Source: Streptomyces oryzae | GTDB taxonomy: Bacteria; Actinomycetota; Actinomycetes; Streptomycetales; Streptomycetaceae | Assembly: GCF_017676365.1 (NCBI RefSeq) | Contig: NZ_JADKMA010000015.1 | Coordinates: 1 to 64,000 of the forward strand | DNA length: 64,000 bases | Reading direction: 5' to 3' | In this document: one piece after another, positions 1 to 8,903 of the stretch | Position numbering within the stretch: the stretch's first letter is position 1 | How the letters are laid out: each line of letters begins with the position of its first letter | The notes under the pieces: generated by a model | Told to the model about the DNA's origin: nothing | Databases searched by the model: none | The model's input: only the letters and a program-made list of their open reading frames with translations | Made by a program: the position numbers and the translations under genes

Positions 1-148
1 GGGCGGACGGGGCACCTGGCTGCCCCGGCGGCGGGGCCTCGGCCCCGGTTCCCTGGGGTGCGGCTCCGGCTTTCTGCGGTACGGCCCCGGCCCCGGTTCC
101 CTGCGGTACGCCCTCGGCCCCCTGCGGTCCTGCCTCTACGGCGCTCAT
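1..148 (-). CDS. ABC transporter permease, N-terminal part (cut by window edge)
   Basis: The ATG overlaps the stop of the upstream ABC ATPase (ATGA), so this is the next gene of the lasso operon. Only about 49 codons are visible. They encode a low-complexity stretch rich in Gly, Ala, Pro and Gln with repeated PQGTGA/PQKAGA-like units and no membrane segment yet. Calling it the permease partner is inference from translational coupling to the ATPase; such cytoplasmic leaders are common before the first helix of ABC-2 permeases. The C-terminal side lies outside the window. Confidence 0.6.
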   Translation of the reverse strand, partial: MSAVEAGPQGAEGVPQGTGAGAVPQKAGAAPQGTGAEAPPPGQPGAPSA

Positions 149-1122
149 CGCCGCCTCCCCACGTCCTCGACGGTCAGCGGACCGCTGCGTTCGGCACGGA
201 TGGTGCGGCCGGTGTGGTGCAGGAACACATCGTCGAGCGAGGGCGGGGTCACGGTCGCCGAGACCACCGGAATGCCCGCCTCCGCACAGAACTTCGGGAC
301 GAACGCCGCGCCGTCCGCGACGCTCAGCCGCACCCCCTCCGGACCGGATGACGCCTCGATACCGAAGCGCTCCCCCACGACACGCGCCGCCGCCACGTCG
401 TCGCGGGTGCGCAGCAGCACCGTGTCGCCGGCCACCTCCGCCTTCAGCTCGGCGGGGGTGCCCTCCACCTCGACCTGGCCGTTGTCCATGATGGCCAGCA
501 GGTCGCAGTGCTCGGCCTCCTCCAGGTGGTGCGTGGTCAGGAAGAGGGTGATGCCGCGCTCCTGGCGCAGCCGGTGCAGATGTTCCCAGATGACGGTGCG
601 CGTCTGCGGGTCAAGACCGGTGGTCGGCTCGTCCAGGAAGAGCACCTGCGGGGCCGTCAGCAGCCCCCTCGCGATTTCCAGCCGCCGCCGCATGCCGCCG
701 GAGAACTCCCGCACCGGGCGGCTCCGGCACTCGGTCAGGCCCACCAGTTCGAGCAGTGCCGCCACCGTGCGGCGGCTCTGCCGCCAGGGAACGCCGAACA
801 GCTCCGCGTGGAAGCGCAGCGCCTCCTGCGCCGTGAGGTCCATGTCGAGCGTCGTCTCCTGGAAGACGAGCCCGAGGCGTTCGCGTACCGCGTGCGGCTC
901 GGCCACCACGTCGTGCCCGGCCACGAAGGCCCGCCCCGCGGTGGGCCGCAGCAGTGTGCACAGCATGTTGATGGTCGTCGTCTTGCCCGCGCCGTTCGGC
1001 CCGAGAAAGCCGAACGTCACCCCGCGGGGCACGGCCAGGTCGAGCCCGACGACCGCGGGGGTGTCGCCGTACGTCTTGCCCAGGTCCTCGGTGCGGACGG
1101 CCAGTTCGTCAGTCGTGGCCAT
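145..1122 (-). CDS. ABC transporter ATP-binding protein of the lasso cluster
   Basis: This is a 325-residue nucleotide-binding subunit of the DrrA-like type. Walker A GPNGAGKT is at residues 41-48, followed by the signature FSGGMRRRLE and Walker B VLFLDEPTTGLD. The C-terminal accessory region is typical of drug/peptide exporters. I chose the ATG at 1122 because AAGGGAG precedes it and the more upstream frame is only repeat sequence belonging to the B2 gene. The start lies inside the 3' end of the leader-peptidase gene and the stop overlaps the next start, so the whole operon is translationally coupled. Likely role: export of, and self-protection against, the mature lasso peptide (inferred from position). 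Confidence 0.93.
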   Translation of the reverse strand: MATTDELAVRTEDLGKTYGDTPAVVGLDLAVPRGVTFGFLGPNGAGKTTTINMLCTLLRPTAGRAFVAGHDVVAEPHAVRERLGLVFQETTLDMDLTAQEALRFHAELFGVPWRQSRRTVAALLELVGLTECRSRPVREFSGGMRRRLEIARGLLTAPQVLFLDEPTTGLDPQTRTVIWEHLHRLRQERGITLFLTTHHLEEAEHCDLLAIMDNGQVEVEGTPAELKAEVAGDTVLLRTRDDVAAARVVGERFGIEASSGPEGVRLSVADGAAFVPKFCAEAGIPVVSATVTPPSLDDVFLHHTGRTIRAERSGPLTVEDVGRRR

Positions 1123-1690
1123 GGCGAGCTCCCTTCGGCGTGCGGGACGTCCTGGCCGCGCGGGGCGGCTTCCCGGCGCGGGGTGACTCCCCGGTGCGGG
1201 GCGGTATCCCGGCGCGGGGCGACTCCCTGGTGCGCAGCGGCGGCTTCCCGGCGCGGGGTGGCTTGGTTCCACGCGCGGGCCGGGCGCGTACGGCGATCAT
1301 CGTGCGGAAGGCGTCGATCGCCTCCCCCTCCCCGACCGGCTCGCCGTCTGCCTCGATCCAGGCGTGCGCTCCGAACGGCCTGGTACGAAACCCCGAGCAC
1401 CAGTCCGGCCACTCCCCGTGCAGGCGGCACAACAGCGCTGCGGCGACCGTACGTTGCAGACACCCGAGCCCGGCGCAGCGCGCGCTCACCGAGACGGCCG
1501 CCTGCCGTGCGTACAGCGCGCGCTCCCGTCCGGCGGGCCGGGCGCCACGGCTGAGCACCGTCAGCACCCGGCGCAGTCGGCCGGGCTTCAGCTTCACCAG
1601 CAGCCGGGCCACTCCGACCGCCGCCCGCGCCTCCAGCTGCCGGTGCGGCGCCAGCCGCACCGCTCGCTCTCCCACCCCTGGCAAGCTCAT
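1109..1690 (-). CDS. Lasso peptide leader peptidase (B2, transglutaminase-like), with repeat tail
   Basis: B2 proteins are cysteine proteases that remove the leader from the lasso precursor. Here the expected pattern is present: Cys77 in GLGCLQRT, His109 in GAHAWIE and Asp115 just after it. The canonical domain ends near residue 136, the usual family length. The remaining roughly 57 residues are a basic Pro/Arg/Gly tail (ESPRAG, PPRTGE, SPRAGK units) encoded by an 18-bp tandem repeat. The ATG overlaps the B1 stop (ATGA), and the last codons overlap the ABC ATPase start. The tail is not seen in typical B2 proteins and may be dispensable. Confidence 0.93.
   Translation of the reverse strand: MSLPGVGERAVRLAPHRQLEARAAVGVARLLVKLKPGRLRRVLTVLSRGARPAGRERALYARQAAVSVSARCAGLGCLQRTVAAALLCRLHGEWPDWCSGFRTRPFGAHAWIEADGEPVGEGEAIDAFRTMIAVRARPARGTKPPRAGKPPLRTRESPRAGIPPRTGESPRAGKPPRAARTSRTPKGARHGHD
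1169..1261. repeat. 18-bp imperfect tandem repeat in the 3' end of the B2 gene
   Basis: Five units close to cttcccggcgcggggtga follow each other, with a 3-bp insert before the last. Because 18 is a multiple of three, the repeat keeps the B2 frame open and adds six-residue units. Confidence 0.8.
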
Positions 1691-1947
1691 CGCGTCACCA
1701 GCAGTCCTGCGGTCCTGAGTGCGTCGATCAGTCCGCGCACATCGGCGGTGGCCCGCTCCAGGAACTCGGGGGCGGCCGAGCTCAGCCGCTCGGCCGTCTG
1801 CTGCGGTGTGCTGCCCTCCAGCAGCATGCGCAGCGCGGTGGCGCCCGAGCCGTTCAGCCGCCAGAAACGGCCGTCCTTCTCGTTGAGCAGCACCACTCCG
1901 GATTCGGTCTCGGTCAGGATGACCTCGCGGGGCAGGGCGAGCGTCAT
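1687..1947 (-). CDS. Lasso peptide RRE protein (B1, PqqD family)
   Basis: An 86-residue PqqD-like protein with the expected fold order: beta strands (VILTETESGVVLLNEKDGRFW), the LNGSGA turn, then helices ending DALRTAGLLVTR. In lasso clusters the B1 protein is the RiPP recognition element that binds the leader YxxP motif and presents the precursor to the B2 peptidase. Start ATG at 1947 has a strong AAGGAGG and overlaps the cyclase stop (ATGA); its own stop overlaps the B2 start. It is a stand-alone RRE, as is usual in actinobacterial lasso clusters. Confidence 0.95.
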   Translation of the reverse strand: MTLALPREVILTETESGVVLLNEKDGRFWRLNGSGATALRMLLEGSTPQQTAERLSSAAPEFLERATADVRGLIDALRTAGLLVTR

Positions 1948-3863
1948 GATGCCTCCTTCAGCGGGGTCGTGGTCGGCGGCAGCGGCGGGGTGTGCGGCGA
2001 CGGCCCGGAGCGGGGCTGCGGCGGCTCGGGGCGGAGTTGCGGCAACCCGGGGCTGGTGCAGGCAGAGCGCAGCCATGCCTCGACGGCGACGGTGTTCTCC
2101 AAGTGCGCCGCGTAGCGCCCCTCCTCGGGCGGGCTCAGCAGCGCCGCACGCAGTACGTCGGCGTCGGCGAGGCCACGCGCGCCCAGCCGCAGCCCGGCGC
2201 ACATGGCGACGGCCCCCTCCTTGCCGCGCGCCAGGCCCTCGTACAGCTCGGCGCTGAACTCGCCCTTGTCGGTACGGTCGAGGACGTCCTGCGGGACGAT
2301 GCCCCGCATGGCCGCCACCAGCAGCGGCTTGAAGCTGCCGGAGCGCATCCGCTGGGAAAGCCGTACCGACAGCGCCGCCTCGATCACCCGGTCGTCGAGG
2401 AACGGCGCCTCCCAGGCGATGCCGTACGGCGCCATGGCCCGCGCGGTCTGCCGGATGGTGGTGCCCTCGAACGCGAGGTACTCCAGCACCTGGTGCCCGA
2501 ACCGGTCGCCGTCCAGCGGCGGTGTGCCCGCACGGGCCTCGGCCAGCAGCGCCCCGCGGACCAGGTCGACGGCCTCAGGCGTGCTCCATGCGGGCATCCG
2601 CAGCTCCCCCGTCCAGCCGAAGCCGACCTGCCAGCGCTGCGGCGGCGGGCCGGTCAGCCGCCCGGCCAGGGAGCGCAGGGCCTCGGGGAAGCCGGAGCGG
2701 TCGGCCAGCCCGCGCACAGTGGCCGACAGCGGCCAACGGTTGAGAAGTTGGCGGCGGCGGATCTGCACTAGGGCGGCGCGCGGCTCGGTGCGGAGCATGG
2801 CCCACAGGCCATTGGGCAGCGGCCCGAACAGTTCGTCGCCGCCGAGCCCCATCAGATGCAGCCTGGAGCCCTCCTCGTACGCCGTACGGGAAAGCGCCCG
2901 CAGATGCGGTCCGCCCCAGCGCCAGTTGAGCGGGCCCTCACCGCCGTCGGGTTCGTCCGTCCCGCCCTCGCCGTCGCCGGCGAGGCCGAAGAGCCGCGCC
3001 GAGTGGTCGTGCGCCAGCTCGGTGTGGTGCACAGTGAGGCCGAAGTGGGTGGCGGCCAGCCGGGACCAGCGGTGATCGGGGTTGCGCGGGTCGAGCGGAA
3101 CCGCGTGGTACGTGCGGGTGGGTGCGGCCACATCGTCCGCGACGAAGCAGAGCGAGGTGGAGTCCAGCCCACCGGACAGATCCGCGCTGAGCGTCCCAGC
3201 CGACTCGGCCCGCACCCGTACCGCCTCCCGCAGCGCCTCCCGCACAGCTGCGGCGGCCTGCGGCAGCGGAGCCTCCGGTGCGGGCCGCTGCCACCAGCGC
3301 CGCTCCCGCGCGGAGCCGTCCGGCGCGAGCTCCAGCCAGTGGCCCGGGGTGACGGCCTCGACCCCGCTCCATACCGACCTGCGGCACAGCGGCCAGGGCA
3401 CATACGGCGTCAGCAGCCGGGCCGCCAGCGCGGCTTCGTCGCAGGGCGCCTCGGCGAGCGCTGCCAGCGGCGCGGGGCCGCTGGCCGCGAGCGTGACCCC
3501 GGCGACCCGGGCAGTGAAGATCTGCCGCGCGGTCGAGAGCGCCCCCTGCGCCCGCACCCGCCCCTCGAAACTGGCCACCAGATGGCAGCAGCCCGCCATC
3601 GAGCGGGCCGCCGCGTCGAGCCCGGACAGCGACCCGGCCCGCTCCAGCGCACGCTGCATCCGGTCGGCCGCGGGCCGGGCATTGCCGACCACCGCCAGCC
3701 GCCGCGCCCCCGAGGCGAACACCCGCACCGCGCCTCCGCCCCACCAGCCGAGCAGCCACGGCCGACCGGAGGCATGCGGGACCACGCTCGCGGCCCCGAG
3801 CGCAGGCGTACGGGCAACGAGTTCCTGGGCAGCCGGATGGTCGGGAAGGATGAGGAAGTCCAT
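1944..3863 (-). CDS. Lasso peptide macrolactam synthetase (C, asparagine synthetase B-like)
   Basis: A 639-residue protein of the AsnB-like lasso cyclase family. It adenylates the side-chain carboxylate of the ring Asp and closes the isopeptide bond with the core N-terminus. The N-terminal half resembles a degenerate glutaminase domain that lacks a catalytic Cys at residue 2. The synthetase half has the ATP-binding loop SGGLDS at residues 230-235. The last 30 or so residues are Pro-rich. I chose ATG 3863 (AGGAG upstream); the frame is open for another 500 bases, but that stretch is His/Pro/Thr-rich and uncharacteristic. The stop is coupled to B1. A 561-bp spacer separates it from the precursor gene. 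Confidence 0.95.
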   Translation of the reverse strand: MDFLILPDHPAAQELVARTPALGAASVVPHASGRPWLLGWWGGGAVRVFASGARRLAVVGNARPAADRMQRALERAGSLSGLDAAARSMAGCCHLVASFEGRVRAQGALSTARQIFTARVAGVTLAASGPAPLAALAEAPCDEAALAARLLTPYVPWPLCRRSVWSGVEAVTPGHWLELAPDGSARERRWWQRPAPEAPLPQAAAAVREALREAVRVRAESAGTLSADLSGGLDSTSLCFVADDVAAPTRTYHAVPLDPRNPDHRWSRLAATHFGLTVHHTELAHDHSARLFGLAGDGEGGTDEPDGGEGPLNWRWGGPHLRALSRTAYEEGSRLHLMGLGGDELFGPLPNGLWAMLRTEPRAALVQIRRRQLLNRWPLSATVRGLADRSGFPEALRSLAGRLTGPPPQRWQVGFGWTGELRMPAWSTPEAVDLVRGALLAEARAGTPPLDGDRFGHQVLEYLAFEGTTIRQTARAMAPYGIAWEAPFLDDRVIEAALSVRLSQRMRSGSFKPLLVAAMRGIVPQDVLDRTDKGEFSAELYEGLARGKEGAVAMCAGLRLGARGLADADVLRAALLSPPEEGRYAAHLENTVAVEAWLRSACTSPGLPQLRPEPPQPRSGPSPHTPPLPPTTTPLKEAS

Positions 3864-4251
3864 GTCCAGCGCGTCTCCTGGTGCGTGGCGGCAGACGAAT
3901 TTGCGGCAGGCGGGTGGATGGCGGCAGGTGGATGGCGGCGACGTATGGGAGCGGGCGTATGGCGGCGGCGGATGGCGATCGGCACCATGCGCGGGGCTCG
4001 CGGCCGGCGTACGCGTGGGGGCCCCGTGGTCGGCGTAGGCGTGGCGTCCGGCGGCTGGTGGAGGAGTGCCGCCTGAGGCGATCTGCGGAAGCGTGTCGCC
4101 TGAGGCGCCCGGCGCAAGCAAGTGACCTGAGGTCCCCTCGCAGGCAGGGTGCGTGTGACGTATGACGTGTGAATTACCGGTACAGGAAGTAGGCGGCCGG
4201 GTCTCGCAGTCGTGCGCGCAAGGGTCTCCGGACCCCGTGTCATAAGACGTG

Positions 4252-4343: not shown

Positions 4344-4373
4344 AGTGGCCGGGAAGGTCGCTCCCCGGCCACT
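4344..4373 (-). terminator. Strong hairpin between the lasso precursor and cyclase genes (attenuator)
   Basis: Perfect 10-bp arms (agtggccggg and cccggccact) flank a 10-nt loop, starting 52 bp past the precursor stop. There is no U-tract, as is common for actinobacterial terminators. It probably lets most transcripts end after the precursor, so that substrate exceeds enzymes. Confidence 0.65.
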
Positions 4374-4424: not shown

Positions 4425-4550
4425 TCAGATGCACCACAGCGCGCGGCCGCAGCCGAGGAAGTCGGGGCAGTCGCCCGACGGCAGGCACTGCGTCAGTTCC
4501 TCGAAGTCGCCGAGCTCGGTCAGGGCCGGGGGCTCGTAGGTGTGCTCCAT
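4425..4550 (-). CDS. Class I lasso peptide precursor (A)
   Basis: A 41-residue precursor. Leader residues 1-21 carry the RRE-binding pattern YxxPxLxxxG (Y5, P8, L10, G14) and end LTQ, giving the conserved Thr at -2. The core, residues 22-41, is CLPSGDCPDFLGCGRALWCI. Asp9 of the core can close a nine-residue ring with the N-terminal amine of Cys1. Cys1/7/13/19 are spaced exactly as in class I lasso peptides with two disulfides (siamycin, aborycin, sviceucin), most like sviceucin in GDC.DFLGCG.A. GGAGG lies 5 nt before the ATG. The gene leads the cyclase-B1-B2-ABC operon. The product should be cyclised, cut after Gln21, oxidised and exported. Confidence 0.95.
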   Translation of the reverse strand: MEHTYEPPALTELGDFEELTQCLPSGDCPDFLGCGRALWCI

Positions 4551-4661: not shown

Positions 4662-4744
4662 ATGGTCCCGAATGTGTCCCGTTGTTCCCCAGCCCCGGCT
4701 CCTCCCGTGGCTCCCCGTCTCAACAACCCCGTTGCACCCATTAC

Positions 4745-4812
4745 GCGAGCCCTCACACCTCGCGAGCCCTCACACCTCGCGAGCCCTCACACCTCGCGAG
4801 CCCTCACACCTC
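4745..4812. repeat. 17-bp tandem repeat, four perfect copies
   Basis: gcgagccctcacacctc occurs four times head to tail. The last copy contains the stop codon and last Val codon of the adjacent ABC permease, so the array grew from the gene's 3' end. The period is not a multiple of three and lies outside coding sequence except for that copy. Confidence 0.9.
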
Positions 4813-5715
4813 CCTGCGCCGGAAGGAGAGCCAGCCGATGAGCAGGGCCAGCGCCGTCCAGCCCGCGACGACGAGTATGCCGCCCCAGGGGCCGAGGGAC
4901 GGGTCCGCGTCGGCGCCCACCTTCAGCGCCTGGATACCCGCCTTGTCGGGCAGATAGCGCGCCGCGTCCTTCAGCCCGGGAACGGCCTGGCTGAGGGGTG
5001 AGACGGCGAACAGGAAGACATACATCGCCCCCAGCGCGAAGGCCGTCGAGCGCACCGCTGTCGCCACGCCGAACGCCAGCAGCGCGAGCAGGGTCAGATA
5101 CACCGCGCCCAGCGCCATTCCGCGCAGCACGCCCGGCTCGTCCAGCGGGACGCCGTACTCACCGAGACCCTCCTGGTCCAGCAGCCAGGACAGCGCCACG
5201 GTGACGGCCGCGAGGGGAAGCGTCACGGCCGTGCACACGGCGGCCTTCGCCAGATACAGCCGACCGCGCCGGGGCACCGCCGCGAGAGACACCCGGATCA
5301 TCCCGCTGCCGAACTCGCCGGTGATCAGCAGCACTCCGAAGGCGACGAGCCCCAACTGCGTGTACCAGACGATGTTGAAGCCGGAATCCACCGGGTTGAA
5401 GTCCGGCCGTACCCTGCCGTTGTCGGCCTCCAGCGCATTGCCGACCGAGATGCCGGAGATCAGTGCCAGGCCGATACTGACCGCGAAGGTGGCCACCAGC
5501 ACGGCGAGGGTGGAGCGCAGCGTACGGACCTTCGTCCACTCCGCGCGGATCGCCGCAGGCGTTGCGCGGCCGCGCACGGCCGGGAGGGCGGAGCCTCCGG
5601 CCGAGCGTACTGCTCCGGACGCCTGGGAGGGCTCGGAAGAGCCTGAGGAGTCTGAGCGGTCCGAGGAGTCCGACGGGCCGGAGGACGCCGCGGCGGTGGT
5701 CTCAGAGGGCACCAT
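4804..5715 (-). CDS. ABC-2 type transporter permease
   Basis: A 303-residue membrane subunit. After a Ser/Pro/Ala-rich cytoplasmic leader of about 50 residues comes the typical IRAEWTKVRTLRST motif. Six hydrophobic segments follow, with GEFGSGMIRVSLAAVPRR between helices 2 and 3 as in ABC-2 permeases. Start ATG 5715 has GGGGAGG upstream and lies inside the 3' end of the preceding ATPase gene, so the two are coupled. Function: export or immunity together with the ATPase; linkage to the lasso peptide is inferred from position only. Confidence 0.92.
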   Translation of the reverse strand: MVPSETTAAASSGPSDSSDRSDSSGSSEPSQASGAVRSAGGSALPAVRGRATPAAIRAEWTKVRTLRSTLAVLVATFAVSIGLALISGISVGNALEADNGRVRPDFNPVDSGFNIVWYTQLGLVAFGVLLITGEFGSGMIRVSLAAVPRRGRLYLAKAAVCTAVTLPLAAVTVALSWLLDQEGLGEYGVPLDEPGVLRGMALGAVYLTLLALLAFGVATAVRSTAFALGAMYVFLFAVSPLSQAVPGLKDAARYLPDKAGIQALKVGADADPSLGPWGGILVVAGWTALALLIGWLSFRRREV

Positions 5716-6646
5716 GACCGGCACCTCCCCGCGGGCCGGCGCCACTGCCGGCCGTGAACTGCGTCTCGCGTGCGGTCATCTCCAAGAACGCCTCCTCCAG
5801 CGAGGTGGACTCTCCCGCCAGTTCGTCGAATCCGATGTCGTGGGCGCGGGCAAGCTTCGCCACCTCGCGGCTCTCCATCCCGGTCACACGCAGCGTGCCG
5901 TCCGGCTCGGGCCCGGCCTCGGCGCCGGCTTCGCGCAGCAGCCCGCGCAGCCGCTCGGGCTCATGGCAGCGGATGCGGACCACGCTGCGGCAGTGCTCGG
6001 CGGTGAAGTCGGCCAGACTGGTGTCGGCCAGCAGCCTGCCGCGCCCGATGATGACCAGGTGATCCGCGGTGACGGCCATCTCGTTCATCAGATGGCTGGA
6101 GAGCAGCACCGTGTGCCCGGCGGCCGCGCGCTCCTTGAGCAGGTTGCGGAGCCAGTGCACACCCTCCGGGTCAAGCCCGTTGACCGGTTCGTCCAGCAAC
6201 AGCACCTCCGGGTCGCCCAGCAGCGCGGCAGCTATGCCCAGCCGCTGGGACATGCCCAGCGAGAAGCCGCCCGAGCTGCGTTCGGCCACGTCGGAGAGGC
6301 CGACCATGCCGAGCACTTCACGCACGCGGGAGCGTGGGATGCGGTGGGTGCGGGCCAGCCACAGCAGGTGGTGGTAGGCACTGCGGGTGCGCTGCGTCGA
6401 CTTGGCCTCCAGCAGCCCCCCGACCCGCAGCAGCGGGTCGGCCAGCTCCCGGTAGGGCTTGCCGAACAGCAGGGCCCGGCCCGCGTCCGGCTCGCCGAGG
6501 CCGAGCAGCAGCCGGAGCGTGGTGGACTTGCCCGCGCCGTTGGGGCCGAGGAAGCCGGTGACCCGTCCCGGCCGCACCGCGAAGCTCAGATCGTCGACGG
6601 CCCGCGCCGGGCCGTAGGACTTGGTCAGATGCTGCACTTCAATCAC
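5702..6646 (-). CDS. ABC transporter ATP-binding protein
   Basis: A 314-residue ABC-2 ATPase with Walker A GPNGAGKS at 34-41, signature GGFSLGMSQRLG, Walker B VLLLDEPVNGLD and switch His in SSHLMNEM. It is similar in layout to bacitracin/lantibiotic immunity ATPases. The start is taken as the GTG that begins VIEVQHLTKSYG, because the frame upstream lacks domain content. It pairs with the overlapping permease gene and is divergent from the histidine kinase gene, an arrangement typical of peptide-sensing immunity modules. Confidence 0.92.
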   Translation of the reverse strand: MIEVQHLTKSYGPARAVDDLSFAVRPGRVTGFLGPNGAGKSTTLRLLLGLGEPDAGRALLFGKPYRELADPLLRVGGLLEAKSTQRTRSAYHHLLWLARTHRIPRSRVREVLGMVGLSDVAERSSGGFSLGMSQRLGIAAALLGDPEVLLLDEPVNGLDPEGVHWLRNLLKERAAAGHTVLLSSHLMNEMAVTADHLVIIGRGRLLADTSLADFTAEHCRSVVRIRCHEPERLRGLLREAGAEAGPEPDGTLRVTGMESREVAKLARAHDIGFDELAGESTSLEEAFLEMTARETQFTAGSGAGPRGGAGHGAL

Positions 6647-6813
6647 GTATCGAGCATGGCGCCGGAGCGGCGCCGCAGACATCGGACCGGGCTCCGAACT
6701 TTCCGGCCGGACCTGAGGTGGACCCGACCGGCGGCTCGCGGCGCGCTTCCTACCGCGGTCTGACCGACCGTGGTCGGACGTGCGGAAGGGGGTCGGCGGG
6801 CTACGGTGTGCGA

Positions 6814-8190
6814 GTGACCGGTGACGGTGGGCAGAGCAGGGAAGAGCAGCGTCGCAGCTGGGTGCAGGGCAGCCTGACCCGGCGGCAGCTGCTGGCGTGG
6901 GACGGTGCCGCGGCGCTGGCCTTCGCCCTGTTCTACGCCGTGCTGTCCCCCGTGCAGCACGGCGCCCCGGCCCCGGCCGCGCTCGGGGTGCCGCTGCTCC
7001 TCGCGATGAGCCTGCCGCTGGCCGTGCGCCGGGTGTGGCCGCGTGCCGTGCTGCTGGTCGTCGTCGCGGCCTCGGCGGCGACCTCGGTGCTCGATGTCCT
7101 CCTGGAGCCGTTCCTGGCGGTGGCGTTCGCGCTCTACGCGGTCGCCGTGACCAGCGCCAGGGCTGGGCGTGCCGCGCGGTGGGCGGTCGGCGGCGGCAGC
7201 GCGCTGATCCTGCTCGTGCTGGTCGCCGGTGGCACACCGTCAGCGGCGGTCAGCGTTGGGCTGCCCGTGTGGCTGTCCGGCCTCATCGTGTGCGGGCTGA
7301 CCTGGGTGTCCGGGCAGGCCATCCGGGAGCGGCGGGCCTATGCGGAGCGGGCGGCCCGGCAGCTGGCGGTCAACGCGGTGGCGCAGGAGCGACTGCGGAT
7401 CGCCCGCGAGCTGCACGACGTGGTCGCGCACCACGTCGGAGTGATCGCCGTGAAGGCGGGCGTCGCCCGCCATGTGGCGGAGGTGGCGCCCGAGGAGGCG
7501 ACCGAGGCGCTGCGGGTCATCGACCAGGAGAGCCGCACGGCGCTCCAGGAAATGCGGGGCATCCTGGGCCTGCTGCGCAACGAGTCCAACGGCGAGGAGG
7601 AGCCGCGCCACCCGGACCCGAGCCTGGCCCACAAGGCGGACGTACACGCTCTGCTGCGCCGGGCGGGCGAGGCCGGCGTCGAGGTGGAGCTGAGCACCGA
7701 GGGGCTGGGCAGACTGCCGGACGGGGTGGCCAGGACCGGGCATCGGGTGGTGCAGGAGGCGCTGACCAACGTCATCAAGCACGCGGCCCCGTGCTACTGC
7801 CGGCTCGTCCTGGTGGCCGGACTCGATCACCTCCAGCTGGAGATCATCGACGACGGCGGGCGCTGGCAGAGCTACACCGGGAAGGGCGCGGCGCGCCGCC
7901 CGTCGCCGGAAGCCGCCCGCAGCACGCAGGCGGAGCCGGACCACGACGCGGCACGGCCCGGAGCCGGAAGAGGCGCGGGCCGGACGGCGGAGCAGCCCGT
8001 GGGGCACGGGCTGCTCGGCATGCGGGAGCGAGTGGCGATGTACGGCGGTGAGCTGATGGCGGCTCCGGTGCCCGGCGGGGGCTTCGCGGTGCGCGCCCGC
8101 ATCCCGCTGCGCCCCCGGCAGTCCCCGCCGGAGGACGCCGCACAACAGGCAGCGCAGGACACGAATCAGGAGGCGTCACGGTCGAGATGA
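6814..8190 (+). CDS. Two-component sensor histidine kinase (HisKA_3, NarL-partner type)
   Basis: About 458 residues. The N-terminal half has several hydrophobic segments (residues 28-165). The dimerisation/phosphoacceptor box ERLRIARELHDVVAHHVGV puts the phospho-His at 201. The HATPase_c domain follows, with a Gly-rich insertion of about 45 residues before its last G-box (GHGLLGMRERV). Start is uncertain between GTG 6808 and GTG 6814; GGAAGGGGG lies upstream. It is translationally coupled to the response regulator gene (ATGA). Divergent to an ABC exporter pair, it may sense cell-envelope stress or the lasso peptide. Confidence 0.92.
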   Translation: MTGDGGQSREEQRRSWVQGSLTRRQLLAWDGAAALAFALFYAVLSPVQHGAPAPAALGVPLLLAMSLPLAVRRVWPRAVLLVVVAASAATSVLDVLLEPFLAVAFALYAVAVTSARAGRAARWAVGGGSALILLVLVAGGTPSAAVSVGLPVWLSGLIVCGLTWVSGQAIRERRAYAERAARQLAVNAVAQERLRIARELHDVVAHHVGVIAVKAGVARHVAEVAPEEATEALRVIDQESRTALQEMRGILGLLRNESNGEEEPRHPDPSLAHKADVHALLRRAGEAGVEVELSTEGLGRLPDGVARTGHRVVQEALTNVIKHAAPCYCRLVLVAGLDHLQLEIIDDGGRWQSYTGKGAARRPSPEAARSTQAEPDHDAARPGAGRGAGRTAEQPVGHGLLGMRERVAMYGGELMAAPVPGGGFAVRARIPLRPRQSPPEDAAQQAAQDTNQEASRSR

Positions 8191-8903
8191 GCAATGCCCC
8201 CGATGCCGAGATGAGCAATGCCCCCGAGACGGTCAGGGTGCTGATCGCCGACGACCAGGAGCTGTTGCGGGAGAGCTTCCGGGTGCTGGTGAACGCCGAA
8301 CCCGGCCTCGAGGTCGTCGGACTGGCCGAGGACGGTGAAGCGGCGGTCAAGCTGTCGGTGAGCGAGCGTCCGGACGTGGTCCTGATGGATGTACGGATGC
8401 CCGGCCTGGACGGGATCGAGGCGACGCGGCTGATCCGCGCGAACCCGGACGCCGAGGGAGTGCGGGTGCTGGTGCTGACCATGTTCGACATGGACTCGTA
8501 TGTGTTCGCCGCGCTGCGGTCCGGGGCCAGCGGCTTCCTCCTCAAGGACGTGGCCCCGGCCGAGCTGGTGCGGGCCATCCGTACGGTGGCAGCGGGCCAG
8601 GGGCTGTTGGCGCCCAGCGTCACCTCCCGGCTGATCGAGGAGTTCTGCCGCCAGCCGCAGAACGTGCCGGCCGTCTCCGAGAGCCTTGCTCCGCTGACGG
8701 CACGCGAGCGCGAGGTGCTGCTGCTGGTGACCAGAGGGCTGTCGAACACGGAGATCGCCGCCGAACTCCATGTGTCCATGGCCACGGTGAAGACTTACAT
8801 CGGCCGGCTGCTCGACAAGCTCGGCGCCAGGGATCGCGTCCAGCTGGTGATCACGGGATACGAGCACGGCCTCGTCACCCCCTCCAGCCCTCCGCACAGA
8901 TAG
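8187..8903 (+). CDS. LuxR/NarL-family response regulator
   Basis: A 238-residue receiver-HTH protein. Acidic pocket ADD is at 21-23, phospho-Asp at 68 (VVLMDVRMPG), and the C-terminal LuxR HTH begins LTAREREVLLLVTRGLSNTEIA. The ATG overlaps the kinase stop. A 24-bp duplication makes the first eight residues repeat (MSNAPDAE then MSNAPETV), so ATG 8187 and ATG 8211 are both possible starts; the overlap favours the first. Likely phosphorylated by the adjacent kinase and controls neighbouring transport or biosynthetic genes. Confidence 0.94.
   Translation: MSNAPDAEMSNAPETVRVLIADDQELLRESFRVLVNAEPGLEVVGLAEDGEAAVKLSVSERPDVVLMDVRMPGLDGIEATRLIRANPDAEGVRVLVLTMFDMDSYVFAALRSGASGFLLKDVAPAELVRAIRTVAAGQGLLAPSVTSRLIEEFCRQPQNVPAVSESLAPLTAREREVLLLVTRGLSNTEIAAELHVSMATVKTYIGRLLDKLGARDRVQLVITGYEHGLVTPSSPPHR

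Follow-up and report, generated by a model that had tools for sequence, protein, structure and literature searches.

A class I lasso peptide gene cluster, very probably of the arcumycin type, in Streptomyces oryzae

Class I lasso peptides are rare and act on Gram-positive bacteria. One of them, arcumycin, was reportedly described by Stariha and McCafferty in 2021 as a class I antibiotic from Streptomyces NRRL F-5639. The peptides of the siamycin type (siamycin I/MS-271, aborycin, specialicin and humidimycin) have 21 residues ending in CFW with a D-Trp, and in their clusters D2 is followed by the genes E (DoxX) and F (thioredoxin), as is also the case in a class I cluster of Herbihabitans rhizosphaerae; the siamycin type carries H (CapA) in addition. 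The arcumycin cluster has no homologues of E and F and no H (PMC9266682). Siamycin I binds lipid II (PMC7168211), the VanS kinase is inhibited by sviceucin and siamycin I (PMC11872507), and arcumycin has MICs of 4-8 µg/mL on B. subtilis, S. aureus and M. luteus and >32 µg/mL on E. faecalis (PMC12488318).

The window, that is the whole stretch of 64,000 nucleotides of Streptomyces oryzae analysed here, holds at its left end a lasso cluster with the gene order HK, D3, D4, A, C, B1, B2, D1, D2:

1-148, minus strand: D2, ABC permease, N-terminal part only
145-1122, minus strand: D1, DrrA-like ABC transporter ATPase
1109-1690, minus strand: B2, transglutaminase-like leader peptidase (NF033537, PF13471)
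1687-1947, minus strand: B1, PqqD-like leader-binding protein (RRE; NF033530 at 89.2 bits, cut-off 70; PF05402)
1944-3863, minus strand: C, lasso cyclase with an Asn_synthase fold and an SGGLDS PP-loop at residue 230
4344-4373, minus strand: GC-rich hairpin of 13 bp between A and C, from folding and compensatory changes
4425-4550, minus strand: precursor A, leader MEHTYEPPALTELGDFEELTQ, core CLPSGDCPDFLGCGRALWCI and stop
4804-5715, minus strand: D4, ABC-2 permease upstream of A
5702-6682, minus strand: D3, ABC ATPase
6718-8190, plus strand: divergent histidine kinase (HK; HisKA_3 and HATPase_c), exact start uncertain
8187-8903, plus strand: divergent LuxR-type response regulator

The original prediction of a 41-codon precursor with a stop at 4425-4550 is borne out by translation of the minus strand, where these 126 bases give MEHTYEPPALTELGDFEELTQCLPSGDCPDFLGCGRALWCI (41 amino acids) and then a stop. 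The leader that it described is also present: YEPPALTELG matches YxxPxLxxxG, Thr stands at -2, and the gene scores 35.7 bits against NCBIfam lasso_leader_L3 (cut-off 19). Since this curated model recognises the gene, the claim that its size escapes annotation does not stand. Translation and alignment to solved class I peptides likewise agree with the core that had been proposed, with Cys1/7/13/19 and Asp9, the class I lasso signature. A ribosome-binding site (GGAGG) lies 5 nt 5' of the ATG, and a search for a simple sigma-70 type promoter for the cluster found none. The gene is not a chance reading frame, because it is conserved in three other species with changes mostly at third codon positions: this is where 11 of the 13 nucleotide differences from S. 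albus and S. spirodelae fall, and the core shows at most one conservative change in the relatives.

The genes C, B1 and B2 expected to follow the precursor, with an ABC transporter behind them, were recovered by profile matches, although the predicted extent proved too short: a second ABC pair and a two-component system upstream had been overlooked. The contig also stops inside the D2 permease, the remainder of which lies on another contig of the same assembly (C87, bases 5-802). All three class I enzymes are present with conserved active-site motifs: in alignments, the cyclase retains SGGLDS and B2 its conserved Cys and HAW motif, B2 being the sole Transglut_core3 protein in the genome. D3 matches best, though below the cut-off, the NCBIfam model of a lantibiotic-protection ABC subunit; a role of D3 in immunity or export is probable from its sequence. 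Downstream of D2 come a PAP2 gene and a response regulator/histidine kinase pair. The PAP2 phosphatase was considered as an immunity gene and rejected as part of the chromosomal flank: these genes also stand side by side in four relatives that gave no class I hit in the precursor search, and we thus place the cluster boundary at D2. Judging from the sequence, the cluster is real and intact, though split between two contigs.

The best reading of the locus is a class I precursor predicted to form a 9-residue Cys1-Asp9 ring with disulfides 1-13 and 7-19, because the core aligns to solved peptides and the enzymes are homologous to, and syntenic with, those of the siamycin and specialicin clusters. 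Over its whole length the core aligns with sviceucin (sequence from PDB 2LS1), and a 19-residue alignment is obtained with RP 71955, specialicin and MS-271. Sviceucin is the closest solved relative: it shares the 20 residues, Cys1/7/13/19, Asp6, Asp9 and the DFLGCG motif, so that the GDC-DFLGCG-A core could be taken to mark a sviceucin-type cluster. However, the two differ at 8 of the 20 positions (residues 2, 3, 4, 8, 15, 17, 18 and 20), and the sviceucin cluster has E and F (PMC9266682), neither of which lies downstream of D2 here. The likeness to sviceucin that had been predicted thus holds for the core and fails for the cluster, and a sviceucin-type assignment appears very improbable.

The arcumycin-type assignment that we prefer also sets the locus apart from the siamycin type, with which it shares the entire gene order, the leader, the Cys and Asp9 positions and a hairpin between A and C. 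The core differs from the 21 residues ending in CFW, E, F and the H epimerase gene are lacking, and the cyclases are about 45-47% identical. The Herbihabitans cluster encodes a sviceucin-like core, CTPWGDCRDFLGCGRAPICVG, in the same gene order as the window but has E and F, and its cyclase is 51% identical. Closer relatives were found when a strict back-translated pattern, C-x5-C-x-D-F-x-G-C-G-x-A, was run over 84,980 species genomes and matched 32 stretches, 19 of which hold a lasso precursor. S. smyrnaeus DSM 42105 and S. spirodelae DW4-2 encode exactly the core of the window, and S. albus NRRL B-1811 encodes CLPSGDCPDFLGCGRAIWCI, with Ile17 instead of the isobaric Leu17. Where the shared locus aligns, DNA identity is 88% to S. 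smyrnaeus, 86% to S. spirodelae and 81% to S. albus, so the window probably represents another species of this group. In the cyclase tree the four sequences cluster together with full support. Such precursors are infrequent: of 394 genomes sampled from the genus, 11 (that of the window included) had one of the siamycin or arcumycin type, and in a phylum sample of 397 genomes only the window's own did.

Without E/F oxidoreductase genes and without the H epimerase, the window cluster has the rare architecture of the arcumycin cluster, and we consider it very probable that the locus is an arcumycin-type class I cluster, intact and belonging to a sister species. The taxonomy of the producer strengthens the link: NRRL F-5638 is taxid 1463866 and F-5650 is 1463868, the intervening 1463867 has been merged into S. 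albus, and we infer that it was NRRL F-5639, which would place the arcumycin producer under S. albus. S. albus NRRL B-1811 holds a single class I precursor, so arcumycin is most likely CLPSGDCPDFLGCGRAIWCI, and the product of the window (Leu17, against Ile17 in what is apparently the producer's species) is most likely its isobaric Leu17 form; for arcumycin itself, a core of the pattern CLPSGDCPDFLGCGRA[I/L]WCI would be expected. In one review, arcumycin is listed as class II with a sequence that contains no cysteine (PMC12427821 Table 1); as this contradicts the title of the paper cited there, which states class I, it is probably a table error. The core string of the window occurs in none of the papers searched, which would fit a locus that encodes an unreported class I peptide other than arcumycin, the core of NRRL F-5639 differing from that of S. 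albus NRRL B-1811. This is unlikely given the inferred identity of NRRL F-5639 with S. albus, the only class I precursor in NRRL B-1811 and the shared E/F/H-less architecture. Hence the novelty implied for the core cannot be upheld: other sequenced species carry the same core, and the cluster matches that published for arcumycin.

At the locus, E, F and H are absent from the genomes of the window strain, S. albus, S. smyrnaeus and S. spirodelae. A homologue of E was found nowhere in these four genomes, and F is represented only by unlinked paralogues of about 31% identity. Because the cyclase tree is unrooted (the possibly broken Actinomyces cyclase being excluded), loss of E/F in the arcumycin group and gain elsewhere look alike in it. 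Disulfides could plausibly form without these genes: mature peptides are still made when sviF, mslE or mslF is deleted (PMC9266682), while loss of sviF keeps sviceucin in the mycelium (PMC9266682). We tentatively propose, with somewhat less than even confidence, that the arcumycin clade lost or never had E/F, that no dedicated enzymes are needed to make its two tail-locking disulfides and that other parts take over export. Alternatively, the cluster may be decaying, its product not made or left reduced: E/F are missing and the linkers are expanded by repeats (in the B2 tail, the D2 N-terminus and the A-C spacer). Yet all cluster frames are open and the active-site motifs are kept, substitutions in A are mostly silent, the architecture is common to four species, and neither SviF nor MslE/MslF is needed for disulfides (PMC9266682), all of which makes decay quite improbable. 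The window cluster adds an intact, well-bounded member to the E/F-less branch, which spans at least four species and is the least studied of class I. If the proposal is true, the arcumycin clade is a natural experiment on class I disulfide formation without dedicated enzymes. Comparison between the branches makes the way in which class I disulfides form a testable question.

Leader binding, leader cleavage and Cys1-Asp9 closure are established steps of lasso biosynthesis. By analogy, B1 would bind the YEPPAL leader, B2 would cleave between Gln(-1) and Cys1, and C would adenylate Asp9 and couple it to the amine of Cys1, closing the ring around the threaded tail. The Cys1-Cys13 and Cys7-Cys19 bonds would follow with no oxidoreductase from the cluster, in a reaction that is probably either spontaneous or catalysed by housekeeping enzymes. 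The pairs D1/D2 and D3/D4 would carry the peptide out and make the producer immune, with the divergent two-component system in control. For the mature product we calculate a mass of 2102.883 ([M+H]+ 2103.891), from an arithmetic that reproduces the published 2177.8588 of humidimycin (PMC7168211). The product probably binds lipid II and inhibits Gram-positive bacteria.

The hairpin between A and C (4344-4373) is retained in the four relatives that make up the arcumycin group, with both-side changes at 3 of its 13 pairs, a covariation that is drawn from four sequences and is thus moderate evidence. No T-run follows it. In siamycin-type clusters a similar hairpin lies about 9 nt past the A stop. 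From its sequence and position, an attenuator or a 3' stabiliser of the A message is probable; the hairpin would curb read-through into C or shield the A message, probably yielding surplus precursor. More generally, a strong GC hairpin stands just 3' of A in all class I clusters examined (the window's and seven other A-C gaps).

Several minor observations were made along the way. In the S. oryzae strain, repeat expansions occur in the C-terminal tail of B2 (1142-1264), in the N-terminus of D2 (35-128, adjoining the contig end) and in the A-C spacer (3909-3977), and a perfect 17-bp repeat of 4.1 copies lies between D4 and A (4744-4812). Outside Streptomyces, Actinomyces denticolens DSM 20671 carries a sviceucin-like precursor, CLWWGDCRDFLGCGRAPICV (locus L052, 8181-10147); at this locus the cyclase matches are split in two and the search gave no E, F, D1 or D2, so the cluster may be broken. 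Three loci (L088, L089 and L090) encode lasso-like precursors with cores such as GAGPTDCVDWWGGDAWIC, which have Gly1 and two cysteines, one at the C-terminal end. Three others (L095, L097 and L099) encode lasso precursors that come in pairs and contain vicinal cysteines, e.g. VTCCGRWLDNPFGWTAWFDL and FGCCGRWIDNPFGYGWFDF, and to our knowledge these pairs are unlike the four known disulfide classes.
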